A stretch of DNA of 44,963 nucleotides, taken from an uncultured Clostridia bacterium (GTDB lineage: Bacteria; Bacillota; Clostridia; Oscillospirales; Oscillospiraceae). The translations under genes and the position numbers were made by a program. The notes beneath the pieces were generated by a model, which was given only the letters and a program-made list of their open reading frames with translations, searched no databases and was not told the origin of the DNA. Of this stretch, positions 4,506 to 11,434 are shown one piece after another (within the stretch, counting starts at the first letter, position 1; each line of letters starts with the position of its first letter). The stretch is taken from positions 1-44,963 of the forward strand of contig CAMNHH010000002.1 of assembly GCA_946539175.1 (NCBI GenBank), in the 5' to 3' direction.

Positions 4506-5702
4506 TTATTTCCGCTCCAGGCTTTTCACCGCCTCCCTGAAGGCGGCGTACTGCTCCTTTGTGGGGGACGCGGGACTGTAGCGAGTACGGCGGTAGATCT
4601 CGTGGACGGTCTCGGCGGCGGGTCCGCGGAGGCCGGCGGCGGCCTCCAGCTCCGTTGGGGTCAGGGCCTCCAGGGCCCGGGCGGGCTCGGTTCTGCGGAG
4701 GATCAGCTTTTCGTAGCGGCGGCGGATCTTCTTTTCGTAGCCGGAGAGCCGCTCCCTCTCCCGCTTGCCCGCAGCTTCCTCCTCCAGGTACTCAATGGTC
4801 AGACCGTCCTCCTGCCGCCCGGGCAGCTTCTTTTGGTCCCGCCTCAGCAGCTCCAGCAAAGCCTTCACGAGATAAAAGAGCAGGATCCCCAGGCCCAGGG
4901 CGCCCAGCAGCAGAAGAAGGCCGATGAAGCCGTCCCGCAGCCATTCCAGATTCAGCGGCTCCGCGTGTCCGGTGCCGGCGTATTCCTTTTCGGGCAGGGT
5001 CTCATTGTGGGGCTCGGTGGATTCCGCCTGGTACTCCGGAATGGGCCGCACAGTCCCGGGCTCCGGCTGCCGCTGCAGCAGGAAGGGCACGGCGGCCAGA
5101 ATCAGCGTCCCCAGCAGGGCGAAGGCCAGCAGGACCCGGCGGTTTTGCCGCACCAGGTTCTCCACGGAGACCTGGGTATTTCTGGACATGCGGATGTCCC
5201 GCAGCAGGCGGCTCAGATTCGTATGCACCAGGAAGGTGAGGGTCAGAAGGGCTGTCAGCGCCACCCCGAGGCCCGCCAGCATGGGAATGCCCAGGGCCTT
5301 GCCCAGGGCAAAGGCCGGCACGCCCAGCACCAGGGTAAAGAAGCGAGGCACCGTCAGAATCAGCTTGTCCTGGGGCCGGGGCAGCAGCAGACCGCTGAGC
5401 AGCATGGGGACGCAGCAGCAGAGATAGTAGACCCAGTGGTGATCCCGGCGGGTCATCAGCAGGCTCAGGCCGAACACGGCAAGGCTCAGCAGCGTCCGCA
5501 GGGGCTTGCCTCGGATCCTTTCGCAGATCACCCGGATCAGCTGCACCGGGATCAGGGTTCCCAGGGCCCAGCAAAGGCGGCGGATGGGATCGTCCTCGGT
5601 GAAGAGCAGGGCGATGGGCAGGGCCAGGCACAGGGTCAGAAGGCCCAGGTGGACGCACTCCATCCAGTGGATGCTTCGCTCCAGCTTTCGCAGGTTCTTC
5701 AC
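4506..5702 (-). CDS. multi-pass membrane protein with DUF4129-like C-terminus
   Basis: The 398-residue product has about six hydrophobic segments in residues 15-165 and another near 190-210. A presumably extracytoplasmic linker rich in Pro, Glu and Thr follows, then a last membrane segment near 255-280. The soluble C-terminal part is rich in Arg and Glu and holds ALTPTELEAAAG and RTRYSP, the pattern of DUF4129 domains. Such proteins are usually the third partner of MoxR-DUF58 units, often fused to a transglutaminase core, which is absent here. The GTG start overlaps the DUF58 stop by four bases, and the ribosome site GGGGAGGTGA lies inside that gene, so the two are probably translationally coupled. 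The molecular function is unknown. Confidence 0.8.
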   Translation of the reverse strand: MKNLRKLERSIHWMECVHLGLLTLCLALPIALLFTEDDPIRRLCWALGTLIPVQLIRVICERIRGKPLRTLLSLAVFGLSLLMTRRDHHWVYYLCCCVPMLLSGLLLPRPQDKLILTVPRFFTLVLGVPAFALGKALGIPMLAGLGVALTALLTLTFLVHTNLSRLLRDIRMSRNTQVSVENLVRQNRRVLLAFALLGTLILAAVPFLLQRQPEPGTVRPIPEYQAESTEPHNETLPEKEYAGTGHAEPLNLEWLRDGFIGLLLLLGALGLGILLFYLVKALLELLRRDQKKLPGRQEDGLTIEYLEEEAAGKRERERLSGYEKKIRRRYEKLILRRTEPARALEALTPTELEAAAGLRGPAAETVHEIYRRTRYSPASPTKEQYAAFREAVKSLERK

Positions 5703-6802
5703 AGCGTCACCTCCCCTTCCGAGGCGTTCCAGTTCAGCAGCGTGACGCCGCCCTCGGTCCGCGGGCCGCCCCGTCCGTTGACGGAGAGGAAATAGCCGCC
5801 CCGAACGCCGGGGGTCCGCTGAAAGGCCCCGAAGGCCGCGCCCGTCGGATCGGCTGAGAGCCCAAGGGGCAGAGCGCCCCGCAGGGCATCCCGGCCCACC
5901 CCCGCCAAAAATTCCCCGTAGGGCTGCGTTGCGGGGGCCGACAGATTGATCCGGGCCAGGGCCTCGTCCACCGCAATCTGGTGGCTCGGGTCCCCGCCGG
6001 CTCCCACCCGTATGGGCAAACCGCTGCTGCAGCTGCGGCCGTTGGCCAGCAGGGCCACGCTGACCCCGCGGCGAAGAAAAAGCTGACTCAGGGAGGAGGC
6101 CAGGCGGATCAGCTCCTCCCGGTCCGCCTCCGAGCCGCTGCCCAGGTCCAGCAGAAAGAGCAGCGCCTCGTCGGTGCTGTGATCATACTGATTGACCTTC
6201 AGCTCCCCGGTTCTGGCGCTGGCCTTCCAGTTGATGAGCCGGGGGCTGTCGTAGATCTCATAGGGACGGATGGCCTTCAGGGCAAAGGGGTCCTCCTGGG
6301 CCACCCGGCGGGTGCTGACGGAGCCCAGCAGCAGCCGGACGGGCAGCGCCAGCCTCTGCGCCGGGATCTTGGCGGGGTAGACGGTGAGACCGGAGCCCGC
6401 GGCCATGGGCTGCTCCAGCTGCAGGGTGTGGAACAGGTCCGAGGCGTAAACCGTCAGCTCCGAGATGGAGTAGACGCCCCGGGTCAGGCCCTCCAGACGG
6501 GCCCGGTTGACGACGGCCCGTCTGCCGGGCAGGGCCAGCTTCCGCTTCAGGGTCATGCTCCCGTCGCCGTCAGCCCCGGTGATGAAGTTCCGCTTTACCA
6601 CGTAGCGATAGCCGAAGCTGGGCAGGGGCAGCCATTTGCGGTTCTCGCTGCGCTCCAGCAGGACCGCGGACGCTCCCTCCGTGACCGCATTCTCGGTAAA
6701 CCGAAAGTCCAGCCGGAGCTTCCGATCCCAACGGGCCTCATAAATCGAACGCTGAATGAAATACAGCAGGGCGGAGCCCAGCAGGATCCAAAGGATCAGC
6801 AC
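5699..6802 (-). CDS. DUF58 domain protein
   Basis: The 367-residue product has one N-terminal membrane helix (about 2-18) and a mixed alpha/beta body. The DUF58 signature IRPYEIYDSPRLINWKASAR lies at 178-197 and is followed by a vWA-like fold region (FLLDLGSGSEAD). DUF58 proteins act with MoxR ATPases, perhaps as substrates or adaptors in assembling surface or enzyme complexes, but the biochemical role is not established. The GTG start has a perfect AAAGGAGGT upstream. It sits between moxR (31-base gap) and the DUF4129 gene (four-base overlap), so the three are co-transcribed. Confidence 0.88.
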   Translation of the reverse strand: MLILWILLGSALLYFIQRSIYEARWDRKLRLDFRFTENAVTEGASAVLLERSENRKWLPLPSFGYRYVVKRNFITGADGDGSMTLKRKLALPGRRAVVNRARLEGLTRGVYSISELTVYASDLFHTLQLEQPMAAGSGLTVYPAKIPAQRLALPVRLLLGSVSTRRVAQEDPFALKAIRPYEIYDSPRLINWKASARTGELKVNQYDHSTDEALLFLLDLGSGSEADREELIRLASSLSQLFLRRGVSVALLANGRSCSSGLPIRVGAGGDPSHQIAVDEALARINLSAPATQPYGEFLAGVGRDALRGALPLGLSADPTGAAFGAFQRTPGVRGGYFLSVNGRGGPRTEGGVTLLNWNASEGEVTL

Positions 6803-6833: not shown

Positions 6834-7787
6834 TCAGCGCTCGAAGCGTTCTGTGGGAACGGGCAGCCGCTCCAGGATCTCCCGGAGCAGATTCTGTCCG
6901 CTGCGGCGGTCCAGGCTGCCCTGCTCCAGGGTGATCCGGTGGGAGAGCACCGGCAGCGCCAGCTTCTTCACGTCCTCCGGGGTCACGTAGCTCCGGCCCC
7001 GGAGCAGGGCGGAGGCCCGGACCGCGTTCAGCAGGGCCAGGGAGCCTCTGGGGCTGACGCCGGTGACGGAGTCCTGCCGGGTTCTGGTGGCCTGGATCAG
7101 GTCCGTCAGATAGCCCAGCACAGCCGGGTGGACGTAGACGCTTTTCCGCAGCTCCTGCAGCTCCAGCAGCTCCTTCCCGGAGCAGACGGGCTGCAGCTCC
7201 TCCAGGGGATCCTGCCGCATGAAGCGCTCCAGAATGGCGAGCTCCTCCGCCCGGCTGGGCAAACCCATGGACAGCATCATGAAGAAGCGGTCCAGCTGGG
7301 CCTCCGGCAGCGGGAAGGTGCCCACGGTCTCAATGGGGTTCTGGGTGGCCACCACCAGGAAGGGGACGGGCAGCGGCCGGGTGACCCCGTCCATGGTCAC
7401 CTGCCGCTCCTCCATGCACTCCAGCAGGGCGGACTGGGTCCTGGGGGTCGCCCGGTTGATCTCGTCCGCCAGCAGCACGTTGGTGAAGACGGGGCCGGGC
7501 CGGAAGACGAACTCCCCCTGCTTTTGATTGTAGTAATTGAGGCCTGTCACGTCGGAGGGCAGCAGGTCCGGGGTGAACTGGACGCGGCGGAATTCCCCGT
7601 CCAGGGACCGTGCCAGGGATTTGGCCAGCTTGGTCTTGCCGGTGCCCGGCAGATCCTCCAACAGGACGTGGCCGCCGCAGCACAGGGCCGTCAGCAGCAG
7701 CTCCACGGTGTCCTCCCGGCCCACGATGACCTTGCCGATATTCTGCTTCAGCCCCTCCAGCAGGGCGGCGGCTTGCTTCAGTTCCAT
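6834..7787 (-). CDS. MoxR-family AAA+ ATPase
   Basis: MoxR ATPases are chaperone-like AAA+ proteins that mature or activate partner proteins, often with DUF58 and vWA proteins. The 317-residue product is family length. It has Walker A LPGTGKTKLA near 46-55, Walker B LLADEINRA, sensor 1 VVATQNPIE, and the C-terminal lid starting near TGVSPRGSLALLNA. The ATG at 7787 is preceded by GGGAGGAAA. The gene starts 13 bases after msrC and is followed by DUF58 and DUF4129 genes, the usual MoxR unit. Confidence 0.93.
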   Translation of the reverse strand: MELKQAAALLEGLKQNIGKVIVGREDTVELLLTALCCGGHVLLEDLPGTGKTKLAKSLARSLDGEFRRVQFTPDLLPSDVTGLNYYNQKQGEFVFRPGPVFTNVLLADEINRATPRTQSALLECMEERQVTMDGVTRPLPVPFLVVATQNPIETVGTFPLPEAQLDRFFMMLSMGLPSRAEELAILERFMRQDPLEELQPVCSGKELLELQELRKSVYVHPAVLGYLTDLIQATRTRQDSVTGVSPRGSLALLNAVRASALLRGRSYVTPEDVKKLALPVLSHRITLEQGSLDRRSGQNLLREILERLPVPTERFER

Positions 7788-7800
7788 GGCGTTTCCTCCC

Positions 7801-8247
7801 TCAGATGCTGTTTTCCAGGATGGCGGCGAAGGCCTCCAGACCCGCCCGGTCCGCCTGGGTGAAGCGGTCCAGGCTGGGGCTGTCCAGGTCCAGGACGCCG
7901 ACCACCGCGCCGTTCTTCCGCAGCGGGACCACGATCTCGGATCTGGAAGCGCTGTCGCAGGCGACGTGACCCCGGAAGGCGTGGACGTCCGCCACCAGCT
8001 GGGTTTCGTTCTTTTGGGCCGCCGTGCCGCAGACGCCCCGGCCCAGGGGGATCTCGATGCAGGCGGTCTTGCCCTGGAAGGGCCCCAGCACCAGCCTGTC
8101 CCCCTCCAACAGATAGAAGCCCGCCCAGTTCAGATCCGGCAGGCTGTGCCAGAGCAGGGCGGCGGCGTTGGCCAGATTGGAGATGGGATGGGGGATTCCC
8201 TCCACCAGGGCAGCCAGTCGGACGTTGAGCTCGTGATAATCGCACAT
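7801..8247 (-). CDS. msrC: GAF-domain free methionine-(R)-sulfoxide reductase
   Basis: This enzyme reduces free L-methionine-(R)-sulfoxide with catalytic cysteines in a GAF fold. The 148-residue product has the diagnostic segments GPFQGKTACIEIP, GRGVCGTAA, VADVHAF and GHVACDSASRSEIVVPL. These contain the three family cysteines, corresponding to C84, C94 and C118 of the E. coli enzyme. I start at the ATG at 8247 because AAAGGAGG lies upstream. A longer frame to 8319 would cover the promoter. It shares a unit with moxR, which is not an obvious functional partner. The divergent neighbour is tsaE, with abutting promoters. Confidence 0.93.
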   Translation of the reverse strand: MCDYHELNVRLAALVEGIPHPISNLANAAALLWHSLPDLNWAGFYLLEGDRLVLGPFQGKTACIEIPLGRGVCGTAAQKNETQLVADVHAFRGHVACDSASRSEIVVPLRKNGAVVGVLDLDSPSLDRFTQADRAGLEAFAAILENSI

Positions 8248-8284
8248 ATCGCGCGGCCTCCTTTCGGACTGTTTTACACCTCCT

Positions 8285-8313
8285 ATTTTATCACAGGGAA
8301 AGAGGAATTGCAA
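8285..8313 (-). promoter_or_regulatory. msrC-moxR promoter
   Basis: On the minus strand TTGCAA (8308-8313) and TAAAAT (8285-8290) are exactly 17 bases apart, 38 bases upstream of the msrC ATG. Its -35 box directly touches the -35 box of the opposite promoter. Confidence 0.75.
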
Positions 8314-8342
8314 TTGCATTTTCTCCAGCGATATGCTATAAT
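8314..8342 (+). promoter_or_regulatory. tsaE operon promoter
   Basis: TTGCAT (8314-8319) and a perfect TATAAT (8337-8342) are 17 bases apart on the plus strand, 28 bases before the tsaE ATG. The two divergent -35 boxes form the run TTGCAATTGCAT. Confidence 0.85.
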
Positions 8343-8369
8343 GTTCGGAGAATCGAAAGGAAGACTGCT

Positions 8370-8813
8370 ATGACTTATACCACCCACTCCGCCGCTGAGA
8401 CGGAGCTTCTGGGGGCAAGACTGGCTGAGACCCTGCGGCCCGGCAGCGTGCTGGCCTTCCGGGGCGACCTGGGGGCGGGCAAGACCGCCTTCGTCCGGGG
8501 CGTGGCCCGGGGCCTGGGGATACGGGAGCCCGTCACCTCCCCCACCTATACCATCGTAAACGAATACCCCCAGGGACGGATGCCCCTGTTCCACTTTGAC
8601 ATGTACCGGCTCCGGGACCCGGAGGAGCTCTTTGACCTGGGCTGGGAGGACTATCTGGCCCGGGACGGCGTCTGCGCCGTGGAATGGAGCGAGAACGTGG
8701 CGGAGGCCCTGGAGGACCCCATCACCGTCACCATCCGCAAGGACCCGGCGGACGAGAATCTACGGTACGTCACCATCACAGGAGGAGGCCCGGATGCGGA
8801 TCATTGCCTTTGA
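8370..8813 (+). CDS. tsaE: tRNA threonylcarbamoyladenosine biosynthesis ATPase TsaE
   Basis: TsaE is the P-loop ATPase that works with TsaB and TsaD to put t6A on ANN-decoding tRNAs. The 147-residue product has Walker A GDLGAGKTAFVRG near 32-44, the SPTYTIVNEY switch segment and HFDMYRL with the family Asp. The C-terminal part carries the EWSEN motif. The ATG is preceded by GAAAGGAAG. It is the first gene of the operon tsaE-tsaB-upp-antiporter and overlaps tsaB by 20 bases. tsaD is not in this window. Confidence 0.97.
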   Translation: MTYTTHSAAETELLGARLAETLRPGSVLAFRGDLGAGKTAFVRGVARGLGIREPVTSPTYTIVNEYPQGRMPLFHFDMYRLRDPEELFDLGWEDYLARDGVCAVEWSENVAEALEDPITVTIRKDPADENLRYVTITGGGPDADHCL

Positions 8814-9504
8814 GACCTCCGCCAAGGCCGTCTCGGTCGCCCTGCTGACCGACGGCGCCCTGACGGCGGAATATTTTCAGAACAGCGGCCAGACCCACAG
8901 CCGGACTCTGATGAAGCTGGCCAAGGACATGCTGGACAACTGCGATCTCTCCCCCGCCGACCTGGACTATGCGGCCTGGGCCAACGGGCCGGGGAGCTTC
9001 ACCGGGGTTCGGATCGGCGCCGCGGCGGCCAAGGGCCTCTGCTGGGGCCTGGAGCTGCCCGCCCTGCCGGTCTCCACCCTGGAGGCCATGGCCTGGACCG
9101 CCGCGGATCGGGACGGGCCGGTCTGCTGCTGCATGGACGCCCGGCGCGGCCAGATCTACAACGCCCTCTTCCGCTGCCGCAGCGGACAGCCGGAGCGGAT
9201 CACGCCGGACCGGGCCATCGCCCTGGAGGAGCTGGCGCCGGAGCTGGCCGCCCTGGAGGGTCCGATCTATCTGGTGGGGGACGGGGCCAAGCTGGCCTAC
9301 GACGCCCTGTATCCGCAGCTTCCGGCGCTGCGGCTGAGCTCTGAGCATCTGCGGCAGCAGCGGGCTTCCGGCGTGGCGCTGGCGGCCCGGGCCGCCGTTT
9401 TGCTGGGCAGGACCGCCGACCCGGCCCTGTCCGTACCCAATTACCTGCGTCTTTCCCAGGCTGAACGGGAGAGACTGGCAAAAGAATCGAAAGAAGGAGA
9501 ATAG
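8794..9504 (+). CDS. tsaB: tRNA threonylcarbamoyladenosine biosynthesis protein TsaB
   Basis: TsaB is the inactive ASKHA-fold partner of TsaD in t6A synthesis. The 236-residue product starts [17 protein letters not shown] and carries the hallmark [18 protein letters not shown] near residues 67-84, as well as the [13 protein letters not shown] segment. The start at 8794 is supported by GGAGGAGG and by homology. The long frame beginning at 8596 is a shadow of tsaE. It overlaps tsaE by 20 bases and ends two bases before upp, so expression is tightly coupled. Confidence 0.96.
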
Positions 9505-9506
9505 TT

Positions 9507-10139
9507 ATGGGTTCATTACACGTTTTGGAGCATCCGCTGATTCAGCACAAGCTGGCCATTCTGCGGAACAAGGATACCGGCGTCAAGGAGTTCCGGGAGC
9601 TGGTGGGCGAGATCGCCCAGCTGATGTGCTACGAGGCCACCCGAAATCTGCCCACCAAGGAGGTGGAGATCGAGACCCCCGTGGCAAGGGCCAAGGTTCG
9701 GATGCTGGCAGGCAAGAAGCTGGCCATCGTGCCGATCCTGCGGGCCGGCCTGGGTATGGTGGATCCCATCATCGACCTGATCCCCTCTGCCAAGGTGGGC
9801 CACATCGGCCTGTACCGGGATCCCGAGACCCATCTGCCTGTGGAATACTACTGCAAGATGCCCCCGGACATCTCCGAGCGTCAGGTCTTTGTGGTGGATC
9901 CCATGCTGGCCACCGGCGGCAGCGCCTCCGCGGCCATCAGCCTGCTGAAGGAGAAATTCGGCTGCAAAAACATCGTCCTCATGGACATCATCGCCGCCCC
10001 CGAGGGCGTGGCGGTGATCCGCAGGGATCATCCCGACGTGGAGCTCTTTGTGGCCTCCGTGGATGAAAAGCTCAACGAACACGCCTACATTGTGCCCGGC
10101 CTCGGCGACGCCGGAGATCGGATTTTCGGGACAAAATAA
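9507..10139 (+). CDS. upp: uracil phosphoribosyltransferase
   Basis: UPRTase salvages uracil by joining it to PRPP to give UMP. The 210-residue product is family length. It has the PRPP-binding loop [15 protein letters not shown] near 130-144, the PILRAGLGM segment and the C-terminal uracil-binding region [12 protein letters not shown]. The ATG is preceded by AGAAGGAG. It follows tsaB after two bases and precedes the antiporter after two bases. No leader or attenuator resembling a PyrR site is present, so it is probably expressed with the t6A genes. Confidence 0.98.
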
Positions 10140-10141
10140 TT

Positions 10142-11434
10142 ATGGAAACACTACTCTCTATCGCAGTTTCTCTGCTGGCTGGCCTCATCATGTCCCGGGT
10201 GGTAAAGCCCTTGAAGCTGCCCGCTGTGACAGGCTATCTGATCGGCGGTCTGCTGATCGGTCCCTTTGCGCTGGGCGCCCTGGGCGTCAGGGGCCTGGGC
10301 TTCACCAGCTTTGACGAGGTGGGCGCCCTGAAGCCCATCTCCGACGTGGCCCTGGGCTTCATCGCCTTCGCCATCGGCAACGAGTTCCGCCTCAAGCAGC
10401 TCAAGACCATCGGCCGGCAGGCCACGATCGTCGCCGTCTTCCAGGCCCTTTCCGCGACGATTCTGGTGGACCTGGGCCTGCTGGGCCTCCACCTGCTGAT
10501 GCCCGACAAGATCAACGTGGCCGACTGCATCACCCTGGGCGCCATCGCCACGGCCACGGCCCCGGCGGCCACCCTCATGGTCGTCAACCAATACAAGGCC
10601 AAGGGTCCCCTGGTGGACATCCTGCTGCCCATCGTCGCCCTGGACGACGCCGTGGGTCTCATCGTCTTCGCCGTCAGCTTCGGTATCGCCAAGAGCCTGG
10701 TCAGCGGCGTGGGCGTCAGCCTGGTCTCCGTCCTGGTGAACCCCCTGCTGGAGGTCTTCGCCTCCCTGGCCCTGGGCACGGTCCTGGGTCTGATCTACAC
10801 CTGGTTCGAGCGCTTCTTCCACTCCCGCTCCAAGCGGCTGACGGTGGCCATCACCTTCGTGGTCTTCGCCGTCTCCTTCTCCATGCTGCGGATTCCTCTG
10901 GGCGGTGAGGTGGAGCTGGGCTTCTCCTCCCTGCTGGTCTGCATGATGATGGCCACGGTGTTCTGCAACATCTGCCCCAGCTCCGAGGAGCTCATGGCAA
11001 AGACCGACCGCTGGACCGCGCCCCTGTTCGTGCTCTTCTTCGTCATCAGCGGCGCGGAACTGGACCTGTCCGTCTTCAAGGACTGGGTGGCGGTGCTGGT
11101 GGGCGCGGCCTACATTCTCCTGCGCTCCAGCGGCAAGATCGGCGGCGCCTCGGTCTCCTCCCGCTTTACCAAGTGCAGCCCCACCATTCAGAAATGGCTG
11201 GGCATTACCCTGCTGCCCCAGGCGGGCGTGGCTTTGGGCATGTCTCTGACGGTTTCCACCCAGCTCGGACCCGACGGGGCCGTGATCCGGTCCATCGTGC
11301 TGTTCTCGGTGCTGGTCTATGAGCTGGTGGGACCCATGCTCACCAAGATTGCCCTGACCAAGGCCGGGGAGATCTCCCCCAAGGAGCTCAACCCGCCCCA
11401 CCAAGAGCCCAAGCGTCACAGGGCGAAGGTCTGA
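10142..11434 (+). CDS. cation:proton antiporter (CPA2 type)
   Basis: The 430-residue product is nearly all hydrophobic, with about 12-13 membrane segments. It has the N-terminal PAVTGYLIGGLLIGPF motif of monovalent cation/proton antiporter-2 (Na+/H+ exchanger) proteins. ALDDAVGLIVF carries the paired aspartates typical of electrogenic exchangers, and FAIGNEF resembles the early family segment. The ion (Na+ or K+) cannot be told. There is no RCK/TrkA regulatory domain after residue 420. The ATG follows the upp stop by two bases without a clear ribosome site (only GGGACAA), so translation probably depends on ribosomes finishing upp. Confidence 0.87.
   Translation: METLLSIAVSLLAGLIMSRVVKPLKLPAVTGYLIGGLLIGPFALGALGVRGLGFTSFDEVGALKPISDVALGFIAFAIGNEFRLKQLKTIGRQATIVAVFQALSATILVDLGLLGLHLLMPDKINVADCITLGAIATATAPAATLMVVNQYKAKGPLVDILLPIVALDDAVGLIVFAVSFGIAKSLVSGVGVSLVSVLVNPLLEVFASLALGTVLGLIYTWFERFFHSRSKRLTVAITFVVFAVSFSMLRIPLGGEVELGFSSLLVCMMMATVFCNICPSSEELMAKTDRWTAPLFVLFFVISGAELDLSVFKDWVAVLVGAAYILLRSSGKIGGASVSSRFTKCSPTIQKWLGITLLPQAGVALGMSLTVSTQLGPDGAVIRSIVLFSVLVYELVGPMLTKIALTKAGEISPKELNPPHQEPKRHRAKV

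Follow-up and report, generated by a model that had tools for sequence, protein, structure and literature searches.

Positions 8285–8342 of the window, the whole 44,963-nucleotide stretch of DNA analysed, raise the question of how two divergent transcription units are read from promoters whose -35 boxes touch, and whether the use of one promoter comes at the expense of the other. Read from the sequence, this interval holds two divergent sigma-A-type promoters with abutting -35 boxes (gap 0), one ahead of msr on the minus strand and one ahead of tsaE on the plus strand. We regard it as likely that these are housekeeping promoters of the sigma-A type in a compact back-to-back layout, and that they exclude each other mildly at most. 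The window genome has a size of 2.1 Mb and is 75% complete; named relatives of its tsaE at 74–81% identity are Oscillospiraceae bins, by their titles mostly from the ruminant gut.

The two transcription units and their promoters

The genes and promoter elements of both units are as follows.

4506–5702, minus strand: DUF4129 gene, msr unit (weak match)
5699–6802, minus strand: DUF58 gene, msr unit
6834–7787, minus strand: moxR, MoxR-type ATPase, msr unit (domain match; starts 13 bases after msr)
7801–8247, minus strand: msr, GAF protein of the free methionine-R-sulfoxide reductase type, heading its unit, start ATG at 8247 (structure relatives)
8257–8264, minus strand: msr Shine-Dalgarno sequence AAAGGAGG (sequence)
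8285–8293, minus strand: msr extended -10, TGA plus TAAAAT (8290–8285) (consensus scan; conserved in seven loci)
8308–8313, minus strand: msr -35 box TTGCAA, read 8313–8308 (box present in all seven msr-divergent loci, as TTGCAT in G001 and G009)
8308–8319, no strand: pair of abutting -35 boxes, pseudo-palindromic 12-mer TTGCAATTGCAT (sequence, conservation, copy search)
8314–8319, plus strand: tsaE -35 box TTGCAT (near-invariant at genus tsaE promoters with or without adjacent msr; lineage-wide -35 type)
8334–8342, plus strand: tsaE extended -10, TGC plus TATAAT (8337–8342) (sequence, conservation)
8356–8363, plus strand: tsaE Shine-Dalgarno sequence AAAGGAAG (sequence)
8370–8813, plus strand: tsaE, first gene of its unit, ATG at 8370 (TIGR00150, 2.8e-37)
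8794–9504, plus strand: tsaB, tsaE unit (clear identification)
9507–10139, plus strand: upp, tsaE unit
10142–11434, plus strand: Na/H-exchanger-type transporter gene, tsaE unit

The gene names given in an earlier note on this DNA hold, TsaE by its match to TIGR00150 (2.8e-37) and msrC as consistent with the PDB relatives of the GAF protein, which include YebR (1vhm), 3ksf and 3mmh; the 3mmh entry bears the name methionine-R-sulfoxide reductase. The same note spoke of an oxidative-repair unit, which is right in part: the unit runs on into moxR, DUF58 and DUF4129 and is therefore not purely one of oxidative repair.

Direct reading also bears out the previously described touching divergent -35 boxes, 17-base spacers and good -10 elements. 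The spacer measures 17 nt in both promoters, each of which combines a TGn extended -10 with a good Shine-Dalgarno sequence, and the -10 hexamers TATAAT and TAAAAT with their 17-bp spacers (16–18 bp being the range for sigma-A) are kept in seven species. Transcription is predicted to start about 7 bp beyond each -10, at approximately 8349 for tsaE (plus strand) and 8278 for msr (minus strand), which places 71 bp between the two predicted starts. A consensus scan found the msr promoter with 9 of 12 matches, where about 0.5 hits are expected in 8 kb. The tsaE promoter was not returned by the same scan because TTGCAT agrees with TTGACA at only three of six positions; TTGCAA agrees at four of six, and both hexamers are enriched 17–24 fold at -35 distance in the genus. 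Folding of the window site gave no hairpin (z-score 0.18, no better than shuffles).

TTGCAT and TTGCAA as -35 hexamers of the lineage

Genome-wide figures were obtained by pattern searches in 23 genus genomes and from an 816-kb sample of genus DNA. Perfect TTGCAT-17-TATAAT occurs at 371 sites with both strands summed (reversed control, 0) and is present in all 23 genomes, about half as common as TTGACA-17-TATAAT with 805 sites in the same genomes (reversed control, 2). Among TTG-initial hexamers located 16–18 bp from a -10 in the 816-kb sample, TTGACA ranked first (36 vs. a background of 0.8), followed by TTGCAA (20 vs. 1.2) and TTGCAT (12 vs. 0.5). Being common and enriched at -35 distance, TTGCAT and TTGCAA are both credible -35 elements at the window site. 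The bases after the -35 are T-rich for TTGCAT and A-rich for TTGACA, and the genes behind TTGCAT promoters look like housekeeping genes as judged from their protein sequences, e.g. methionyl- and glutaminyl-tRNA synthetase.

We found no description of a TTGCAT -35 element in Clostridia in the literature, and the main text of two clostridial start-mapping papers does not mention one. At cspA, TTGCAT has been called a good match to consensus (Hook-Barnard and Hinton, PMC2613000). The window pair resembles the -35/TGn sigma-A/sigma-70 promoters treated there in joining an extended -10 to an imperfect -35, but differs in that TTGCAT and TTGCAA are common enough in this lineage for a second -35 consensus. 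We tentatively entertain, as a possibility that we hold to be doubtful, that TTGCAW, with flanks of its own and a distinct set of housekeeping promoters, is a genuine second -35 consensus, doubled into a palindrome at tsaE/msr so that one 12-bp block would serve two promoters usable only in turn.

Conservation, rarity and splitting of the pair

The genus comparison covered 23 same-genus genomes, 19 of which yielded tsaE, and msr is divergent from tsaE in seven species including that of the window. All seven msr-divergent loci keep both -10s, both TGn motifs, the 17/17 spacing and the abutting 12-mer WTGCAATTGCAW, so that conservation of the 12-base run, put forward earlier as a check, is found in every one of them. 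Pairwise identity across the seven loci is 0.94 for the core vs. about 0.50 for the two inner spacers, mean column conservation of the extended -10s is 0.92–0.95, and the GAA and TT flanks of the 12-mer are invariant. Perfect symmetry of the 12-mer, with TTGCAT in both promoters, is reached in two species (G001, G009), and in G001 the symmetric core extends to GAAATGCAATTGCATTTC. For a further species, G005, the reading of the pair comes from two contigs that have this stretch in common and both end close to it.

Abutting -35 boxes are rare, and close ones are not unique: the 816 kb of genus DNA contained 198 promoter-like sites and, among them, 13 divergent pairs within 80 bp, and a gap of 0 occurred only in the window pair, the next closest pairs being 6 and 7 bp apart. 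In the family, tsaE lay near none of 29 further msr loci that were read, and a search of 201 family genomes for the whole double promoter with up to three mismatches gave no family-wide conservation of the pair, only looser matches elsewhere. One of these, a looser double-promoter match (L131), lies between a HAD-like gene (by sequence reading) and an unrelated gene.

Even without msr next to it, tsaE has TTGCATT at its -35 position in almost all of the genus, and across the family this position often holds a TTGCAW or TTGCGN variant; the msr-side half is not kept intact at genus tsaE loci without adjacent msr. Since TTGCAT persists without its neighbour, it is a box of the tsaE promoter in its own right. 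In two species the following genes, one for an ECF-type sigma factor and one for a zf-HC2 anti-sigma-like protein, sit between tsaE and the msr-moxR unit, and in a third an anti-sigma-like gene precedes msr.

L177, 1165–2956 (G003): ECF-type sigma and zf-HC2 anti-sigma-like genes between tsaE and msr
L178, 1139–2984 (G002): ECF-type sigma and zf-HC2 anti-sigma-like genes between tsaE and msr
L179, 651–1958 (G018): zf-HC2 anti-sigma-like gene before msr, tsaE being on a different contig

The msr gene lies directly behind the anti-sigma-like gene in all three, there is no promoter of the TTGCAW type ahead of it, and the letters of the msr-side box are altered (ATGCAC in G003). In a tree of TsaE plus TsaB these three species group with G001 and G009 in a clade with 100/100 support, support outside this clade being modest. 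Given this placement, it is simpler to suppose that the sigma pair was inserted first and the msr promoter then lost, although the direction of change is our inference.

The idea that the msr promoter arose when the tsaE promoter was duplicated in inverted orientation was rejected as a general account, as in most species the inner spacers mirror each other no better, or hardly better, than expected by chance (1–7 of 12 positions). Mirrored inner spacers were found only in G005 (11 of 12), near contig ends. These mirrored promoters (L274 near 1501, contig C17; L267 near 159, contig C6) form a strong inverted repeat with a folding z-score of -7.1, and the two contigs, whose ends lie no more than about 220 bases from the repeat, diverge just beyond the tsaE -10. 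The repeat may be either an assembly artefact or strain variation.

Elsewhere in the family, outside this genus, tsaE showed further symmetric arrangements. An inverted repeat of the TTTACCA...TGGTAAA type straddles the TTTTGCRTT -35 of tsaE at five loci (L105, L107, L111, L122, L244), and many more loci have a single GTAAAC copy close to the promoter of tsaE (L205, L207, L208, L220, L225, L255); the repeat is a possible candidate operator of a putative tsaE regulator. Upstream of tsaE at further loci (L219, L237, L238, L247, L256, L257, L258, L261, L264), AGTATAGCACA...TRTGCTATACT comprises two mirrored extended -10s about 10 bp apart, a symmetric tsaE promoter of bidirectional type.

Possible mutual exclusion and alternative readings

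Measured from the predicted starts, the -35 box of one promoter covers -41 to -36 of the opposite one. With starts 71 bp apart and each -35 where the opposite polymerase would have its upstream edge, the polymerase footprints probably overlap, two RNA polymerases are unlikely to occupy the pair at once, and exclusion is plausible from this geometry. How much it would matter depends on promoter occupancy. A stronger version, in which polymerase on one promoter excludes the other so that expression of msr and tsaE is reciprocally coupled, could draw on the zero gap, the 71 bp between predicted starts and the good extended -10s on both sides, as well as on conservation of the zero gap in seven species. 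Strong activation of one side of an E. coli bidirectional promoter can also repress the other (PMC12825309). Yet no activator site was seen at the msr/tsaE pair, sister species uncouple the two genes while tsaE retains its promoter half, and the 29 further family msr loci have no tsaE beside them. Moreover, bidirectional promoters of E. coli with a shared -10 are too weakly active at the basal level to compete, short of strong activation of one side, and five of five that were tested showed no basal competition (PMC12825309). We therefore consider such a switch unlikely. The earlier proposal that msr and tsaE may compete thus found no support: tsaE keeps its promoter half where msr lies elsewhere and is in this respect independent of its partner. 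Exclusion as such is plausible; that it would be mild is presumed by analogy with differently arranged E. coli promoters, a point against our preferred reading.

The symmetry of the 12-mer invites a different account, namely that it is the operator of a dimeric regulator controlling both msr and tsaE. The near-perfect symmetry, up to GAAATGCAATTGCATTTC in G001, resembles such an operator equally well and in this counts against our preferred reading, and the invariant GAA and TT flanks point the same way. Against it, the window genome has a single copy of WTGCAATTGCAW and five of the six other species carry it at the tsaE/msr locus only (two further copies lie beyond this locus in G005), only the tsaE -35 half is kept where msr is missing, and the half site is explained by the lineage-wide -35 type. 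A dimeric operator is thus quite improbable. The palindrome was likewise rejected as a regulon operator, for it does not recur at other promoters and, as a single-copy 12-mer in the window genome, is not a regulon site. Least probable of all, and very much so, is that one or both promoters are coincidental and the genes are read from elsewhere; TTGCAT has just three of six matches to TTGACA and the scan missed the tsaE promoter, but both promoters stand at fixed spacing in seven species and the tsaE promoter is found in most of the genus.

The compact constitutive pair is favoured because the tested E. coli promoters show competition only under strong activation and none at the basal level. 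It agrees with what was observed directly, namely the anatomy, its conservation in seven species, the lineage-wide occurrence of the -35 type and the single copy of the 12-mer in the window genome; recognition by sigma-A, the start positions, steric exclusion and its small effect are presumed. On this reading TTGCAT would be a long-standing -35 element of the tsaE promoter and, in part of the genus, the msr-moxR-DUF58 unit would have a promoter of its own, with a -35 (TTGCAA or TTGCAT) that directly adjoins and mirrors the tsaE box; the palindrome would be a by-product of this abutment. Sigma region 4, presumably that of sigma-A, could read either half of the 12-mer with the assistance of the extended -10 elements, and expression of both units is probably constitutive. 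Simultaneous filling of both promoters by two holoenzymes is probably impossible, at a cost that should be small at ordinary initiation rates.

The arrangement is of a known kind. Phage lambda pR and pRM are complete, separate promoters that face away from each other with -35s several bases apart and a repressor operating between them. The window pair shares with them close -35 regions, at which the upstream contacts of two polymerases can interfere, but its -35 boxes abut exactly and no regulator site was seen. Bidirectional promoters as described by Warman, Grainger and colleagues have a shared -10 and starts 10–23 bp apart, with separate divergent promoters excluded from the class (PMC12825309). 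Pseudo-symmetric DNA, divergent mRNAs and room for polymerase exclusion are common to these prokaryotic promoters and the window pair, whose -10s are however separate (8285–8290 and 8337–8342), whose -35s abut and whose predicted starts are 71 bp apart, and which therefore falls outside the class.

The locus is a clean, evolutionarily supported case of zero gap between the -35 boxes of two promoters and, as the pair is broken up in sister species, makes back-to-back steric exclusion testable on a short piece of natural DNA. Of wider use is the second -35 hexamer of this lineage, TTGCAT/TTGCAA, which a standard consensus scan missed at tsaE.
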